Source: Variovorax paradoxus
GTDB taxonomy: Bacteria > Pseudomonadota > Gammaproteobacteria > Burkholderiales > Burkholderiaceae_C
NCBI RefSeq assembly: GCF_024734665.1
Contig: NZ_CP102931.1
Coordinates: 5,578,001 to 5,642,000 of the forward strand
DNA: 64,000 bases
Reading direction: 5' to 3'
Shown: positions 1,231 to 8,257 of the stretch, in pieces
Numbering within the stretch: position 1 is the first letter of the stretch
Layout: the number at the start of each line of letters is the position of its first letter
Notes under the pieces: generated by a model
Database searches by the model: none
Told to the model about the DNA's origin: nothing
Seen by the model: the letters and a program-made list of their open reading frames with translations, nothing else
Translations under genes and position numbers: made by a program

Positions 1231-2175
1231 TTAGGGGAACAACGCCTCGCGCGCGCACTGCGAAGCGGTGCGCAGCGCGATGCGGTCCTTGAGGTCATGG
1301 TAGTCAGGCGGCTCGGCGGCGTGCGTGCGCAGTTCGATGCGATGGCCGGCCTTGGACACGGCGTCGGCAAAGCGCTCCTGCAGCGCGAAGGGCGTGTTCC
1401 TGTCTTCGCGATTGCCGATCAGCACGATGCGTCGCGCCGGGTCGCGCACGATGCCGACGACATGGTCCATCGGGTCGTAGAACTGCGTGCTGCCCGTGGT
1501 GTCGGTGCGACCGTCTCTCGAGCGGCCCAGCATGCGCGCGCGCTCCAGCAGGCCGTAGGCGCCCGAAGTCAGCACCGCGCAGGCCACGCGCGTGCGGCCT
1601 AGCGTGAGCAGCGCAGCGCCTGCGGTGGCGCCGCCGCTGTGGCCGACGATGACGATGCGCTGCAGCCTGTGGCGCTGCATGAGCGCGTCGAGTGCCGCAT
1701 CGAGTGCGTGAAACTCCACCAGCTGCCGGCGCTTGCGGTGGTCGCCCGACGATCCGTACGTGCCGGGCCGCGCCACGAAGATCCACGGCACGCCCGCGCG
1801 GTCGCGGCTGCGCTGCGCATCGAGCGTGCGCAGGTCTTCGGTGTTATCGGGAATGCGCGTGGGCGCCTGGTCCATCACGCTGTCGCGGTCGCCCGAGAAC
1901 TGCACGATGGCGATGCGCGCGCCCTCGATGTCGTCGCTCGCGAAGTAGCGGATGCAGGCGGGGCCCTCTGCGGTCTGCACCCACAGGTAGCTGTTGCGGT
2001 CGGGGCAGCTGGCGCGGTCGGCGGGCTGGTTCCAGTGCAGCACTTCGTCGTTGGCCGCGGCAAAGGGCCGAGGCACGTCGGGGCCGGTGCGCTGCGCGCA
2101 GGCGGCCTGCGCCAGCGCGAGCAGCACGAGGGCGCCACGCGCGCACCGCAGGAAGAAGAGGCCCGGTTTGGTCAT
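1231..2175 (-). CDS. Secreted alpha/beta-hydrolase-like protein coupled to the CapA/Mur fusion
   Basis: The 314-aa protein begins with a hydrophobic leader ending near residue 25 in AQAACAQ, which is either a Sec signal or a lipobox-like site. It therefore probably acts in the periplasm or on the inner face of the outer membrane. The nucleophile elbow GHSGGATAG (Ser around residue 179) and a late YHD tripeptide that may hold the catalytic His indicate an alpha/beta-hydrolase fold of the dienelactone-hydrolase or peptidase type. The substrate is unknown. Its ATG overlaps the stop of the giant upstream gene by 4 bp (ATGA at 2172-2175), so translational coupling is likely. An ester or amide hydrolase acting on the product of the fusion protein is a plausible guess, not a demonstration. 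Confidence 0.75.
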   Translation of the reverse strand: MTKPGLFFLRCARGALVLLALAQAACAQRTGPDVPRPFAAANDEVLHWNQPADRASCPDRNSYLWVQTAEGPACIRYFASDDIEGARIAIVQFSGDRDSVMDQAPTRIPDNTEDLRTLDAQRSRDRAGVPWIFVARPGTYGSSGDHRKRRQLVEFHALDAALDALMQRHRLQRIVIVGHSGGATAGAALLTLGRTRVACAVLTSGAYGLLERARMLGRSRDGRTDTTGSTQFYDPMDHVVGIVRDPARRIVLIGNREDRNTPFALQERFADAVSKAGHRIELRTHAAEPPDYHDLKDRIALRTASQCAREALFP

Positions 2176-5100
2176 AGCCGTTGCAGCAGTGCGGGGATGC
2201 TACCGAAGTCGGATCGGTCGCGGTCGCCCTTCACCAGCACCAGGTCGCCGTCGCGCAAGAAGCCTTCGAGGTAGTTCGCGAGCTGCACGGCGTTGTCGAA
2301 GTGCGGGCCGAGCAGTTCGGTGGGCACTTCCTCGCGCAGCCAGCGCATCTCTTCGCCGTGCGTCACGAGGTGCTGGATGCCCGATGCCAGCAGCGGCGCG
2401 GCCAGGCTGCGGTGCATGGCCTCGGCGTCGTTGTCGAGGTTGACGATGCGCCCGAACACGCCGATCTTGCGCACCACGGGGCCGTTGCTCTCCGCGCGCT
2501 GCCAGGTGCGCACGAACTCCATTGCGTTGTGCATCGACATGACTTCGGCGTTCCAGCTGTCGTCGATCAGCGTGGCCTGCACGCCGGCCTGCGTGCGCAG
2601 CGCGCGCACCTGCATCACCGAGGCCGGCAGGCGCACATGCGGCATGCGCGCGCAGGCGGCTTCGCCATCGAAGCCCATGGCCAGCAAAGCCGCGAACGCG
2701 AGCGCCGAGTTGCGCACCAGCCCCGCGCTCTCGACCGGGAACAGGTACTCCAGCGTGCGCCCCGGCACGGCAATGCGCACGCGGCAGCCGCCACCGGGCT
2801 CGGGCCGGGTGTCGACAATGCGCACGTTGGCGTCGGGCCCGGTGCCCACCACCCAGATGGCGCCCGCCGTGCGCGCGGCCGCTGCCACCACCTGCTGCAG
2901 GCAGGCAATGTGATCGGGCACGATCGCCACGCCGCCGGGCTCCAGCCCCAGGAAGATGCGCGACTTGTATTCGGCCGTGAGCTCCAGCGTCGAGGCCTGG
3001 CGCGTCTGCGACAGGCCGATCTCGGTGATGAGTGCCACGTGCGGCCGCGCCACCAGCGAGATCGGGCCGCGGTCCATCCACAGCCCGCTCTGCGCCATTT
3101 CGAGGATGCACACATCCACGTCGGGCCCGAGGTTGGCCAGCATGGCGGGCACGCCGACGCGCGAGTTGTAGTTGTCGATGGTGGTGTGCACGCGCGCGCG
3201 CTCGGGCAGCAGGTCGCGCAGCATCGCGATGGTGGACGACTTGCCTACCGTGCCGGTCACGCCCACCATCAAGCCCTTGTAGCGCGACCGCGCGGCAGCG
3301 CCCATGGCGAGCATCGCGGCAATGGGGTCGTCCACCTGCAGCAGCGGGAAGGCCGGATCGAGCCCGTCCACCGCGTGCGCGACCACGGCGCCTGCCAGCT
3401 CGGAGTGCAGGCGGGGCAATTCGAGGTGGCGGTCCCAGTTGTCGGTGCGCGGCTTGCTGTAGTTCTCGTGCGCGGCCAGTGTGCGGTAGTCGGAGGCGAT
3501 GAAGAGCGAGGGCTTCGGCAGCAGTTCCATGTGGACCGGCCCGCGCACCACCGAGTTGGCGAACCAGCCCGGCGGCGGCTCGACGAGCCAGCGGCCACGC
3601 GTGGCTTTTTTCAGTTGCTCGGCAGTCCACACAGGCGCGGGGTCGGGGCCCGCACCGGGGCGGTCGGCCATGAGCACGGGCGCGGCGCGTTCCGGCAGCG
3701 GCGTGGGAGCGTTCGGCACGCGCAGGCCGCACCACAGCGCGAGACGACGTGCGGGCGGCAGGTCGGGCAGGTCGCCGCGCACGCTCACTTCGAGCTGCAG
3801 CACGTCACTTTCGAGCAAGCTGCCGCGCGGCGGGCGCAGGCCGTAGCGGTCGCGGTAGATGCGGCCGGGCTCCCAGCGGCTGGTGGGCCACATCCAGTCG
3901 CAGGGGTCGTGATCCATGCTCTCGCCCCAGGGCGGCATGCGGGTGCTGCGCATCGGCATCGCGCGGAAGTACAAGCGCAGGTCGGCCGCAACGGCCTCAT
4001 CAGCGGTCCAGAAAGATTCGACCCACAGCATGCGGCGCCCGACGATCTGCCGCGGCGTGCAACGCAGGCCCACGAGGCGCAGCGGGCCGATCTGCAGCGG
4101 CGTGATGCGCGCGTCGTCGGGCACCACGTCGACCAGCCATTCGGGCCGTGGCACATGCACTCGCTCGACGACAGGCGCCGGGCTGAAGACCGGAGCGGCT
4201 GCGGAGGCCAGGTCGGGCTGGAAGGCAGGCCGCTCGGGCGGCGACAGCCGCACCATGCAACGGCCGCCAGACACCGGCAGCATCTCCGTGCCAAGCGCGC
4301 GGCATTGCGCGGCAAAGCGTTCGCTCAAAGCCTGGGCCTTGTCTCCTTCGAGCTGGCGCGAGAAGCCGAAGCCGATGCCAATGGGCGTGAACATCACCTC
4401 CTCGACGCCGCGCGGGCCCAGCGTCAGCGAGAACACGCCCGAGTCCCCGAAGTCGTTGCGCACCGAGTCGAACAGCAGGTCGCCGGCGTCATGCAGGATC
4501 GGCCGGCCGCGATAGATCTCGATGCCCTGCAGCACATGCGCCGAAGTACCGAGGACCGCGTCCGCGCCGGCATCGACGATGGCGTGGCCGACGGCGATCT
4601 CGGCTTGCGTGGGTTCGGTCTCGAGGTTGGCGCCCCAATGCACCGCCACCAGCACCACGTCGGCTTCGCGGCGCGCGGCCTCGATGCGCGGCACGAGCGT
4701 GGCGGTCCACGCGGCCGGGTCGTCCAGTGGCAGCCACGCGGCGCCCGCACGCTCGGCGGTGGCGGCAAATTCCGGCTGCGTGGCGTCGAGCGAAAACAGC
4801 GCCACGCGCAAGCCGCCCGCGCGCCGGAACGCCGGCCGCAGCGCGGCCTCCAGCGTGCGGCCGGTGCCGGCATGAGCGATGCCCGCGGCATCCAGCAAGC
4901 CCTGCTGCTCCATGAGCGCATCGGGGCCGTAGTCGCCGCTGTGGTTGTTGGCGGTGGTGACCATGCCGATGCCGGCCTCGGTCAGCACCGCGAGCATTTC
5001 GGGGCGGGCGCGGTAGTAGTAGGGCGCGGTCTCGTCCTTGTCGACGCCCTGCTCGCCGACGGTGGCGACCACGCATTCGAGGTTCGCGATGCGCAGGTCG

Positions 5101-6917
5101 GCCTCGCGCAGCGCGGCGATGCCGCCGAGCATCTTTTTCGCGCCGCCGAGTTCGTGCAATCGGTAGTGCTGGCGGCGCGAGAGATTCACGTCACCGCCCC
5201 AGGCAACGATGCCGGTAGCTGTTGTTGCTTGCGTGTCTTGCTGTGCCTCGCGCTCCTTCAGCATCCGGTGGTACGCCACATACCCCGAGAGGTAATGCTC
5301 CACGTCGTCGATGCGCACGCGAAAGCTGTGGTGCTTGATGAAGAACGAGCCGGCAATGCGCGCCGGGTTGCGGAAGAACATCGCCAGCTCGGGCCAGAAG
5401 TGGCCATTGGCGAGGTAGCGCGCGCGGTACACCAGCGCGCGGTCGAACTTGTCGCGGTCGAGCCCGGCCAGCAACGGGCGCAATGCGGGGTCGGCTTCGA
5501 GCCGCAGCACCATGTCGCGCGCGGCCATCATCAGTTCGAGCAGCGTGGGAAAGGTGGTGATGCGCTCCAGCACGAAGTCGAGATAGCCCGCCACGTTCTG
5601 CAGGCCGAACTGGTAGTAGCGCGTCTCGGGCCGGTAGCGCGTGAGTTCGTTGACGCAGTAGCTCAGCCAGTGGTCGTGCGCGCGCCAGTGTTCGGCGGCA
5701 ATGAAATGATCGAAAGCCTTCTCGACGACAGCGAGCCAGCGCTCGTCGCGCGTGAGGCCATACAACCGCATCAGACCGAAGGCCGCTTCGCCGTCGTAGT
5801 AGATGACGCGGAACCTGTCCTTCACGTCGAGCGCGGGCGCATTCAGCACGTGCACGAAGCTGCCCGTCTCCGCGTCCTGCATGTGGCGGATGCCGAGCGC
5901 GAGCTGCTCCAGCAGCGGCAGGTATTTCCTGTCGCCGGTGAGCTCGGTGTACTTGACCAGTGCGAGCAGGCACACAGCGTTGCCGCCGAGCTTGATCTCG
6001 CTGCCGATGTCCAGCAGATAGGCAGCGCGTGTGCCGTCCGGCAGATGGGCCGGGCGGATCAGCGTGCCGGCGAGGAAGGCCAGCGAGCGGTCGATGGCTG
6101 CCTTGAGCGTGTCGTTGCGCGTGAGCTCCCATGCTTCCAGCATCGCGTAGGTGGAGCTGGCGTGGCGCAGCGTGTTGTAGGTGGGGATGGCGCGGTCGAA
6201 GCAGGGAAACCAGCCGTAGTGGAACTCGCCCGTGGGCTGAACCTGTTCGGCGAGGTAGTTTCCGGCGTTGTCGACCAGCGCGTGGATCTGCTGTGCGTTC
6301 CACTCGCGCAGCTCGCGAAAGCCGGCCGCCTGGCCTTCTGCGGTGATGGGCCATGCGCCCTTCGCGTCCACGTACACGGCCCGCGTGGTGAAGCACCAGA
6401 CGGGCGCTGCGTCGTCCGCGGGAAAGTCGATCTCGCGGCCGAAGCGACGCTTGCAGTGCAGGCGCAGGTTGCCGGTGTTGGGCTCGGCATGCTCCACGTC
6501 GCCGTTGTAGAGGATCGCGCTGCCGTGCATTTCCTGCGCGAGCAGCGCGAACTCGAAGCGCGCATCGAAGGCGATGCCTTCGTTGAAGTAGTTGCGCTTG
6601 GTTTTGGCGAGCTTCGCCTTCAGCGCGGCCCAGCTCATGGGCGTGACCTTATCGACCACTTCGGCGCGCAGGTGCAGTGGTGTCTGGCCGGTGCGTCTGG
6701 CTTTCTCGGTGGCGGCGCGCCATGCTGCATCGATGTCTGCGCCGCGCCCCGAGACCACGCGAGCCCGGCTGTCGTCTTCACCAGTGGCAAGGAACACCAC
6801 GCACCCTGCTTCGCCGGTGGCGGGCGTTGCCGCGGGCAGCACACCCGCCGGGTCCGCCAGGGCTTGTCTGGCGCGATTCAACAGATCGGCAAGAAAATTC
6901 TTCGAGTCGTTATTCAT
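2172..6917 (-). CDS. Giant fusion: alpha/alpha-toroid-like region + CapA-type domain + MurF-like ligase
   Basis: This 1,581-aa protein (ATG at 6917) has no signal peptide. Residues 1-190 are uncharacterised. Residues ~205-560 are rich in helices with repeated aromatic/acidic patterns (YNTLRHASSTYAMLEAW, IYYDGEAAFGLMRLYGL) like an (alpha/alpha)6 toroid. Residues ~570-880 match the CapA/poly-gamma-glutamate metallophosphatase-like family: GDVNLSR, RIANLECV, TANNHSGDYG, VAVHWGAN and the DAVLGTSAHVLQGIE block. Residues ~905-1095 look like a beta-rich linker. Residues ~1097-1581 form a complete Mur-ligase-like module, with a MurF-like N-terminal part, ATP loop GVTGTVGKSST (~1220), central and C-terminal ligase domains. 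In classical systems CapA and the Mur-like CapB are separate proteins with a membrane partner CapC. No CapC is seen nearby. An upstream TTG at 6965 is in frame but less likely as the start. Confidence 0.85.
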   Translation of the reverse strand: MNNDSKNFLADLLNRARQALADPAGVLPAATPATGEAGCVVFLATGEDDSRARVVSGRGADIDAAWRAATEKARRTGQTPLHLRAEVVDKVTPMSWAALKAKLAKTKRNYFNEGIAFDARFEFALLAQEMHGSAILYNGDVEHAEPNTGNLRLHCKRRFGREIDFPADDAAPVWCFTTRAVYVDAKGAWPITAEGQAAGFRELREWNAQQIHALVDNAGNYLAEQVQPTGEFHYGWFPCFDRAIPTYNTLRHASSTYAMLEAWELTRNDTLKAAIDRSLAFLAGTLIRPAHLPDGTRAAYLLDIGSEIKLGGNAVCLLALVKYTELTGDRKYLPLLEQLALGIRHMQDAETGSFVHVLNAPALDVKDRFRVIYYDGEAAFGLMRLYGLTRDERWLAVVEKAFDHFIAAEHWRAHDHWLSYCVNELTRYRPETRYYQFGLQNVAGYLDFVLERITTFPTLLELMMAARDMVLRLEADPALRPLLAGLDRDKFDRALVYRARYLANGHFWPELAMFFRNPARIAGSFFIKHHSFRVRIDDVEHYLSGYVAYHRMLKEREAQQDTQATTATGIVAWGGDVNLSRRQHYRLHELGGAKKMLGGIAALREADLRIANLECVVATVGEQGVDKDETAPYYYRARPEMLAVLTEAGIGMVTTANNHSGDYGPDALMEQQGLLDAAGIAHAGTGRTLEAALRPAFRRAGGLRVALFSLDATQPEFAATAERAGAAWLPLDDPAAWTATLVPRIEAARREADVVLVAVHWGANLETEPTQAEIAVGHAIVDAGADAVLGTSAHVLQGIEIYRGRPILHDAGDLLFDSVRNDFGDSGVFSLTLGPRGVEEVMFTPIGIGFGFSRQLEGDKAQALSERFAAQCRALGTEMLPVSGGRCMVRLSPPERPAFQPDLASAAAPVFSPAPVVERVHVPRPEWLVDVVPDDARITPLQIGPLRLVGLRCTPRQIVGRRMLWVESFWTADEAVAADLRLYFRAMPMRSTRMPPWGESMDHDPCDWMWPTSRWEPGRIYRDRYGLRPPRGSLLESDVLQLEVSVRGDLPDLPPARRLALWCGLRVPNAPTPLPERAAPVLMADRPGAGPDPAPVWTAEQLKKATRGRWLVEPPPGWFANSVVRGPVHMELLPKPSLFIASDYRTLAAHENYSKPRTDNWDRHLELPRLHSELAGAVVAHAVDGLDPAFPLLQVDDPIAAMLAMGAAARSRYKGLMVGVTGTVGKSSTIAMLRDLLPERARVHTTIDNYNSRVGVPAMLANLGPDVDVCILEMAQSGLWMDRGPISLVARPHVALITEIGLSQTRQASTLELTAEYKSRIFLGLEPGGVAIVPDHIACLQQVVAAAARTAGAIWVVGTGPDANVRIVDTRPEPGGGCRVRIAVPGRTLEYLFPVESAGLVRNSALAFAALLAMGFDGEAACARMPHVRLPASVMQVRALRTQAGVQATLIDDSWNAEVMSMHNAMEFVRTWQRAESNGPVVRKIGVFGRIVNLDNDAEAMHRSLAAPLLASGIQHLVTHGEEMRWLREEVPTELLGPHFDNAVQLANYLEGFLRDGDLVLVKGDRDRSDFGSIPALLQRL

Positions 6918-7034
6918 GCAGCCGCGAATGATGACAGGCCCAAGCGTGGCCTGCCATCCCGGCAATCCATGGAAACCGACTGCAAGCCGGCCCCGATCTG
7001 ACGACCGTCAGCTGACCGCCGACTGACCGCGCGG

Positions 7035-8096
7035 CTACAGCCGCAGCAGTTCGACGCGACGGTTCTTCGCGCGACCTTCTTCGTTGGTGTTCGGCGCCAC
7101 CGGCTCCTTGGAACCGGCGCCGCGCGAAGTGAAGCGCCGCGCATCGAGCCCCGTCCTCGCAAGCGCCGCAATGACCGACACGCTGCGCCGGCGCGAGAGG
7201 TCGGCGTTATGCGGCTCTTCGCCTTGCGCGTCAGTATGGCCCACCACCTGCACGCGCAGTTGCGGGTTGCTGCGCATGAGCTTGGCGATCTCGTCGAGCG
7301 TGGGCCGCGAGTCGGGCTTGATGCTGTCCTTGTCGAGGTCGAAGTGAATGCCGTAGAGGCTGATGCGGCCGTTCTCCGCCAGCCCCTTCTGCATGGCCGT
7401 GGCATCGACGAAGACGATCTTGTCGGACTCCATCGCCTTGCTCTCGACCACGCGCACGAAAGCGAAGTTGCCGCGGCTGTTGCCTTCGGCAAGCGCGATG
7501 CTGGCGTAGACCCTTCCGTTGGGGCCGTCATATTGCGCGAGCAGGTAGCGGCCGCTGTTGTCGAAATAGTTGCTCACGAACTGGCGGCCGCGGCCGATCA
7601 TCGGCCACTCGGGCGTGTCGATGGTGTTGGCCAGCACCGAGACGTCGGTGAACGGCGTTTCGCGGTCGGGGTCTTTCTTGTAGCAGCTGCTGTCGGTGGT
7701 GGCGCACGCGAACAGTGTCTGGAAGCCCTTGGCTTTGAGGGCGGCCTCGTAGTTGCGTTGCACTTCAAGCAGCGAGCGGCCGTCGGGCAGGCGGTAGTAG
7801 TAGAGCGAGACCTTGCCCGCGACTTGCAGCAGCCGTGGCTTGGGCACGGGGTCGCCCCAGTTCTGGATCGGTTCGCGCAGCAGGCCGACTTCGTCGTAGT
7901 CCTTGCTCTGGAAGGCGTCCATCACCGAGCCTTCGTAGCGACCGACCAGCGGGTGGTCTTTGGCGGGCTCGGCGGCCGATGCGAAGGTAGCGGTCGCGAG
8001 CAGTGCGGCACACGCCAGTAGTTGTTGCAGGCGCCGGCCGAAGTTGGGCCGGAACGCGGAGGGTGAATGAGCCATGTGTGGTTGTCCGTTTTCCAT
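7035..8096 (-). CDS. OmpA-family protein with DUF4892-like N-terminal region
   Basis: This is an envelope protein of 353 aa from ATG 8096, which has GAGG about 10 bases upstream. A later ATG at 8075 is also possible. A signal peptide ends near ATFASAAEP. The middle part (KPRLLQVAGKVSLYYYRLPDG, then YYFDNSGRYLLAQYDG) resembles the DUF4892 domain that precedes OmpA domains in proteobacteria. The C-terminal ~110 residues are a peptidoglycan-binding OmpA domain, with HFDLDKDSIKPDSRP, VVGHTDAQG and LSRRRSVSV followed by a terminal NRRVEL. The likely role is anchoring or stabilising the outer membrane on the cell wall. Downstream on the same strand is the CapA/Mur fusion, about 118 bp away, so a shared envelope theme is possible. 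Confidence 0.88.
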   Translation of the reverse strand: MENGQPHMAHSPSAFRPNFGRRLQQLLACAALLATATFASAAEPAKDHPLVGRYEGSVMDAFQSKDYDEVGLLREPIQNWGDPVPKPRLLQVAGKVSLYYYRLPDGRSLLEVQRNYEAALKAKGFQTLFACATTDSSCYKKDPDRETPFTDVSVLANTIDTPEWPMIGRGRQFVSNYFDNSGRYLLAQYDGPNGRVYASIALAEGNSRGNFAFVRVVESKAMESDKIVFVDATAMQKGLAENGRISLYGIHFDLDKDSIKPDSRPTLDEIAKLMRSNPQLRVQVVGHTDAQGEEPHNADLSRRRSVSVIAALARTGLDARRFTSRGAGSKEPVAPNTNEEGRAKNRRVELLRL

Positions 8097-8257
8097 GCGA
8101 ATCGCGCCTCGGATGAGGCGCGATTCGAAGGTATCGGCGGCTCGTTGCGCGGGCAATAAGCCGTTTGGCATGTCTGTTAAGAAGAAGCTTTTAAGAATGG
8201 GCACTGGGGGTGCAAATAGCGCCGACTTCGGGTGTGTTCAGTTCATTCAGGGTGCGT

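Follow-up and report, generated by a model that had tools for sequence, protein, structure and literature searches.

A fused CapA and Mur-ligase protein of Variovorax as a candidate tailoring enzyme for Asp-X repeat adhesins

The window considered here is a stretch of 64,000 nucleotides from the genome of Variovorax paradoxus (assembly GCF_024734665.1, contig NZ_CP102931.1, positions 5,578,001 to 5,642,000), and its positions are counted from its first letter. The host genome is a single 7.29 Mb contig with Variovorax as closest named relatives. In the window, a minus-strand frame runs from an ATG at 6917 to a stop at 2172 and encodes a protein of 1,581 residues, built from an N-terminal module (here called T), a CapA-type domain, a beta-strand-rich part and a MurF-like ligase (Table 1). 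This order is abbreviated as TCBM (T-CapA-beta-Mur), and TCB stands for T-CapA-beta; L-numbers denote loci and G-numbers genomes. The protein, its relatives and the repeat adhesins encoded beside relatives are described below.

An earlier note, made from the letters of this stretch, had recognized the single frame and a set of CapA and Mur motifs. Every one of these motifs is present, and the strand, on which the note was silent, is the minus strand. A plus-strand frame of comparable length (2181-7001) overlaps the gene; it was with the minus frame, the one searched, that both the relatives and the Pfam domains were found. The three modules that had been proposed, namely toroid, CapA and Mur, do lie on one chain. 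However, a fourth, beta-rich part between CapA and Mur has to be added. A fusion by sequencing error, in which separate genes are read through, was rejected because the module order is conserved across many genomes of different genera: T, CapA, beta and Mur follow each other in a single open frame in 75 of the 121 labelled family genes (some loci fetched twice).

Table 1. Coordinates of the features in the window
Feature	Position	Strand	Description
Whole gene	2172..6917	minus	1,581 residues plus stop; order T - CapA - beta - Mur
Module T	5238..6917	minus	residues 1-560; N-terminal alpha/beta part and predicted (alpha/alpha)6-type barrel (205-559)
CapA (PGA_cap) module	4248..5210	minus	residues ~570-890
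Beta-strand-rich module	3648..4136	minus	residues ~928-1090; invariant MDHDPCDW stretch
MurF-like ligase module	2175..3644	minus	residues 1092-1581
P-loop GVTGTVGKSST of Mur module	3231..3263	minus	residues 1219-1229
Alpha/beta hydrolase	1231..2175	minus	314 residues; 4-base overlap between its start and the stop of the large gene; GHSGG motif

For module T, no Pfam match at E 0.001 and no NCBIfam family was obtained over residues 1-560. The best sub-threshold Pfam match of T alone was GH88 (E 0.075), and the T profile gave a single match, at chance level, against the PDB sequences. The structural model of residues 1-565 (predicted local distance difference test, pLDDT, 94.4) contains an (alpha/alpha)6-type barrel, which bears out the term 'toroid-like' of the earlier note. 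In a fold search with this predicted model, the barrel was of the cellobiose 2-epimerase and GH76 type (AGE/GH76-like), and the predicted T thus has the (alpha/alpha)6 barrel of N-acylglucosamine and cellobiose 2-epimerases. Further helical barrels likewise score over 22. Two models were built, from 44 and 30 sequences.

The CapA part matches PGA_cap (PF09587) at residues 572-817 (E 1.5e-59), and its nearest relative is the lasso-peptide epimerase MslH. In the MslH model NF038314 it reaches 81.6 bits, below the cut-off of 700. It keeps D576, E614, N658, H659, D662, H760 and H794, i.e. seven of the eight MslH residues D11, E44, N87, H88, D91, H259, H261 and H295 (the D11 equivalent was placed from the motif alone, the remaining ones from the alignment). 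The eighth, His261, is a Ca ligand in MslH (8gq9; PMC10406935, available sections) and corresponds to Gly762 in the window protein. MslH also differs in acting on one C-terminal Trp, according to the same sections. For the beta module, which the fold search hardly probed and never took singly, no claim of a new fold is made.

The ligase part matches Mur_ligase_M at residues 1220-1410 (3e-19) and Mur_ligase_C at 1447-1565 (1.8e-7). Its best NCBIfam models and structures are MurF, and the MurF fold spans its whole length. The residues of the adenosine triphosphate (ATP) site, T1221, G1222, G1225, K1226, E1273, K1318, N1403, D1452, N1456, H1502 and K1563, are invariant in 12 sequences including the query; a loss of such residues, which the earlier note had named as refuting its reading, is thus not observed. 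Unlike MurF itself, the module is fused to T and CapA and stays below the family cut-off (180.6 bits against 288.6 in TIGR01143). Housekeeping MurF was rejected on this score, and the genome has another MurF-like match at 5738192, in a frame of 927 codons. The module is probably not muropeptide-specific. By a hydropathy scan, the protein has no clear membrane segment (highest 19-residue mean 1.48), and none of the five best windows lies near the start of the CapA part, where a membrane anchor was looked for. A cytoplasmic setting is reasonable for the whole protein, including the CapA-like domain, as had been supposed.

The full query matched 852 of 7,993 scored candidate proteins (120 of them listed). 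In genomes taken one per species, relatives are encoded in 374 stretches; the 80 best of these, amounting to 75 loci, were retained. Several natural forms occur: TCBM; TCB, in some cases accompanied by a Mur gene in the vicinity; T-Mur; T alone; a combination of T and an SdgB-like GT4 glycosyltransferase part (best NCBIfam matches SdgB/SdgA); T with a YheC/D-type ATP-grasp; a GT2 fusion; TCBM with a second Mur; and TCBM with ATP-grasp and acylphosphatase parts. That T is the constant element is partly due to construction, as later searches used T, yet it occurs with each other module set. In Variovorax, the T-Mur form was found in 19 of 37 genomes, among them 16 of the 18 that have the CapA form (p 9e-6; sets sorted by hand, G022 counted on its T part alone). 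This and all other p values ignore relatedness.

Some loci of the family show further particularities. In L053 (15065-17053) and other Microbulbifer loci, a free-standing protein that is ATP-grasp-like and acylphosphatase-like by similarity lies beside TCBM; in other genomes (P0088, P0102), TCBM carries parts of this type as fusions. In the Microbulbifer locus L048 (14829-15494), a putative 2-oxoglutarate-Fe(II) oxygenase is encoded between TCBM and the type I secretion genes and could serve adhesin hydroxylation. A protein of ~590 residues with hydrophobic stretches and a soluble part occurs in the T loci of two genomes (L142:4995-6788, L096:17186-18955), and the L142 copy has no Pfam match. 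Among the Variovorax relatives, L022, L023 and L018 contain T-family frames with one in-frame stop that look like decaying copies. L145 carries three tandem, distant T-like genes, and a gene close to them, for 1,372 residues, matches CapA and Mur; this stretch had no flagged Asp-X run.

In the relatives, the neighbors of T often encode type I secretion and secreted adhesins with very long alternating Asp-X runs, where X is Ala or Ser. The carrier (INDEPENDENCE) is an RTX/BapA-like type I substrate in Gram-negatives and an LPXTG-anchored Sdr-type protein in Staphylococcus, and the repeat is the feature common to these otherwise different adhesins. In an Alcaligenaceae locus (L050), TCBM has a gene for an RTX-type protein at a distance of 133 bases, and the run of this protein comprises 882 residues. 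Other runs count 804 (L137), 322 (L071), 235 (L087) and 171 (L078) residues, and the distance from run gene to T is 343 (L137), 250 (L087) or 112 bases (L092). The Xylophilus locus L078 has the order adhesin, OmpA-like, TCBM, hydrolase, ABC, HlyD, TolC (names by reading). Outside Variovorax, a run of at least 24 residues is present in the fetched stretch for 29 of 55 distinct T genes, several of them from Microbulbifer (the five loci that had been fetched twice are counted once). In Variovorax, a run was found in the fetched stretch of four of the five T-Mur genes and of none of the seven T-only genes. The host genome itself has a T-Mur paralogue at 684104 in an adhesin/secretion cluster with an Asp-Ala adhesin alongside (679474), and a second Asp-Ala adhesin at 605070, away from the 1,581-residue gene.

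T was also found in 54 of 72,556 plasmid records. Six of these were opened and all six encode an Asp-X run protein. Two are staphylococcal: an S. epidermidis plasmid combines Sdr, T and an SdgB-like glycosyltransferase, and an S. haemolyticus plasmid a repeat protein, T and a Mur ligase (L203 and L204 were read by hand, as the simple gene caller missed staphylococcal genes). The tie between T and the adhesins thus crosses phyla. T had been regarded as a mere new N-terminal addition, and a free polymer or envelope carboxylates as the possible substrate. Neither substrate was supported: the recurring partner of the relatives is a secreted Asp-X run adhesin, and T is an unrecognized module common to the loci of such adhesins.

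Further repeat proteins were noticed. In L144, a protein that reads as an Asp-Gly autotransporter adjoins T. Adjacent to the T-GT4 locus of G213, L197 (393-10481) contains a frame of 3,362 residues in which an Asp-Ser run takes up 1,904. L221, L222 and L226, from genomes without T, contain Asp-Gly runs 89-178 residues long.

The module attached to T goes along with the residue between the aspartates. In the loci with an SdgB-like GT4 (fused in L084, L138 and L208, adjacent in L204), X is Ser at 94-98% in four out of four, covering three lineages. In the Mur/CapA-form loci with a run, by contrast, Ala is the commonest X in 29 of 30, with about 65% Ala in the S. haemolyticus locus L203. The difference is supported by Fisher tests on tallies made by hand, of 4 versus 30 loci (p 1e-4) and of 3 versus 18 lineages, grouped by genus (p 0.003). 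Among the T-only loci, X is Ala in L139 and Gly in L144; in G094, which has the YheC/D ATP-grasp form, T and the run are on different contigs. If X is Ala, the Asp carboxylate would be the sole side-chain group open to a ligase, which is the core of the model proposed here.

The tie between T and the runs can also be seen in their distribution. Among 397 evenly drawn Pseudomonadota genomes, T is present in 15, with weak matches in G142 and G097. An Asp-Ala adhesin query matched 59 of the 397 at E 1e-8 or better, and many of these matches cover the N-terminal part of the query or have low identity. For a true run, Asp-Ala or Asp-Ser had to extend in frame over at least 24 residues, and the frame itself had to reach 300 codons. 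Nine genomes contain such a run (G000, G440, G446, G110, G213, G309, G411, G094 and G157), and all nine have T (Fisher p 8e-15; without the own genus 7/7, p 3e-12). In 24 of the 48 T-free genomes with an adhesin-query match, the matching part was read; these comprise all those with at least 50% identity in the run part, the remaining 24 being weaker throughout. One of the genomes read (G121) had a run. In one family of 11 genomes, T is found in two and true runs in the same two, both also among the 397, and the three others with an adhesin-query match were read and empty of runs. In 337 genomes of the class of G310 (probably Alphaproteobacteria), T is strong in one and weak in two, and no Asp-Ala or Asp-Ser run was found.

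A number of observations weigh against this picture. G121 contains, in L195, a 78-residue Asp-Ala/Thr run in a frame of 149 codons and has no T; when it is counted, nine of ten run genomes have T (p 8e-14). The adhesin search, which scored two candidates per genome, is incomplete: G032 was unmatched, yet an Asp-Ser run of 62 residues is present in its locus L105, and runs without T could therefore be missed too. L105 is moreover a T-Mur locus with Asp-Ser instead of Asp-Ala (partly masked), and the run of L063 is mixed, with 53% Ala. In the 337-genome sample, Asp-Gly runs occur in four genomes, of which only G310 has T (the frames are long in G310 and G577, of 218 codons in G711 and of 147 in G651), so that the tie holds for Asp-Ala and Asp-Ser and not for any Asp-X. 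Outside Variovorax, 26 of the 55 distinct T genes have no run in the fetched stretch, only a few of these stretches being short. Finally, none of the 30 distinct Variovorax CapA-form genes (36 rows) has a run in its fetched stretch, and the window itself contains no Asp-X run, so no run adhesin adjoins the 1,581-residue gene. The link for this gene thus comes through its relatives.

Immediately downstream, a gene for an alpha/beta hydrolase overlaps the large gene (Table 1). Its product has a hydrophobic N-terminus that resembles an export signal. The coupling that the earlier note had pointed out is real and conserved in Variovorax: the hydrolase follows TCBM in 29 of 30 rows with room (25 of 26 without four duplicate loci) and all TCB rows (three, of which two are distinct). 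Of the 31 TCBM genes in other genera, eight have such a neighbor, namely the hydrolase in seven cases and a different, HELFH protein in one. These counts were made by tblastn, as the simple gene caller undercounted the hydrolase. The HELFH motif reads as zinc-peptidase-like. The window neighbors OmpA (7035-8204), LysR and EamA do not recur beside the gene in the loci printed; neither does the aldose 1-epimerase (136-1206) that lies 3' of the hydrolase recur beside T genes there.

The 1,581-residue protein probably works in the cytoplasm, where it would tailor adhesins that have long repeats of alternating Asp-X. In the proposed mechanism, the predicted T barrel would bind the Asp-X run and perhaps also act on it. 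The MurF-like module would activate the Asp side-chain carboxylates with ATP, after which they would be amide-bonded to some amino compound. The CapA module, MslH-like in build, would invert residues of the run or otherwise edit the chain. The adhesin would then exit by type I secretion, while the downstream hydrolase, if exported, may trim or release it. In the host genome, the enzyme would act in trans on at least two Asp-Ala adhesins (679474 and 605070). A joint action of T proteins and Asp-Ala/Asp-Ser adhesins can be stated with high confidence. For the amidation of Asp within the run by the T-Mur forms, the chances appear evenly balanced, and an epimerization by the CapA part is rather doubtful.

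Enzymes that tailor adhesin repeats are already known. SdgB puts N-acetylglucosamine (GlcNAc) on the Ser of Asp-Ser-Asp, and both SdgA and SdgB attach GlcNAc to Ser-Asp repeats (PMC8561734, available sections), while staphylococcal sdr genes, including the one for the Ala-rich SdrJ, have one or two glycosyltransferase genes alongside (PMC8360574 and PMC7029136, likewise in part). The likeness lies in enzymes that are encoded beside an Asp-X run surface protein and act on that run, and in the SdgB-like GT4 parts fused to or beside T in some loci. However, SdgA and SdgB are GT-B glycosyltransferases, for which the available sections of PMC8561734 and PMC7029136 mention no T part, whereas the window protein combines a ligase with a CapA module, and Ser is mostly replaced by Ala in its presumed targets.

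The partner is of the same kind in Paracoccus denitrificans, where BapA, an Asp-Ala run adhesin with 891 repeats, is accompanied by the type I secretion system BapBCD. BapA runs at over 300 kDa instead of 212 kDa, and modification could not be excluded by its authors (PMC5588039, as available in part). According to the same sections, this long adhesin is needed for biofilm formation and the stickiness of its acidic chain is left open; no modifying enzyme is named there, and the word 'ligase' occurs 0 times in the main text. PMC13235738, also on BapA, makes no mention of a ligase in its available part. Among the papers listed in literature searches, with subscription papers outside their scope, none connects a Mur ligase, CapA or ATP-grasp enzyme with Asp-Ala adhesins.

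Other explanations have to be weighed against a tailoring enzyme. Poly-gamma-glutamate synthesis depends on CapABC, in which CapA and CapB form a pair. As the window protein unites the PGA_cap and Mur-ligase families of that pair, it might make a free amide-linked polymer or capsule of this kind that is merely stored or exported alongside the adhesin; a part in handling the polymer is conceivable for the coupled hydrolase and the beta module. In contrast to CapABC, however, it is a single chain with module T and no membrane anchor seen, and the best models and structures of its Mur part are MurF. A search of the whole genome for CapC/PgsC (PF14102) gave 0 matches, with a positive Bacillus subtilis control, in agreement with the earlier note. 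Poly-gamma-glutamate synthesis was thus rejected on the absence of CapC, as well as on the partner genes, and T keeps the same kind of partner when CapA or Mur is missing or a glycosyltransferase takes their place. A free polymer is therefore improbable.

The MurF models and the fold that T shares with sugar 2-epimerases would also suit a side branch of peptidoglycan metabolism, where the ligase puts a non-standard group on UDP-muropeptides and T acts on the sugar. Such a role is very improbable: the score is far under the MurF cut-off, the genome has the separate MurF-like match mentioned above, and the tie to Asp-X adhesins would be left without a reason. T could further be a sugar enzyme of a family that glycosylates Asp-X adhesins, with Mur and CapA preparing or transferring a sugar-linked group and no amidation of Asp. 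The AGE/GH76-like fold and the GT4 and GT2 fusions are in line with this, and Ser-Asp repeats are known GlcNAc acceptors (PMC8561734, in part). Most Mur forms, however, pair with Asp-Ala runs, which are devoid of hydroxyl groups. Moreover, the groups that Mur and ATP-grasp enzymes activate are carboxylates, which then enter amide or related bonds. Glycosylation in place of amidation is thus unlikely, and tailoring of the run by the fused protein is preferred.

The Mur-type domain of cyanophycin synthetase forms amide bonds on poly-Asp. This enzyme, CphA1, makes its own backbone, whereas here the backbone would be a ribosomal protein. It is tentatively proposed, at somewhat less than even chances, that T defines a cross-phylum enzyme class for alternating Asp-X repeats, the Mur, CapA and ATP-grasp forms of which build a ribosomal counterpart of cyanophycin, with hundreds of amidated and perhaps D-inverted Asp residues made before secretion by one fused enzyme. 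To our knowledge, and among the papers listed in the searches, no such protein modification has been described, and the ligase branch has a fair chance of being a new one. The annotations 'UDP-N-acetylmuramyl pentapeptide synthase' for family members and 'poly(glycerol-phosphate) alpha-glucosyltransferase' for staphylococcal T are put in doubt. T marks Asp-X adhesin loci from Pseudomonadota to Staphylococcus, and candidate modifying enzymes can now be named for Asp-Ala adhesins. The pattern of glycosyltransferases with Asp-Ser and of ligases mostly with Asp-Ala makes the chemistry testable by mass spectrometry. If true, the ribosomal counterpart of cyanophycin would explain how an acidic Asp-Ala adhesin acts as a surface glue.

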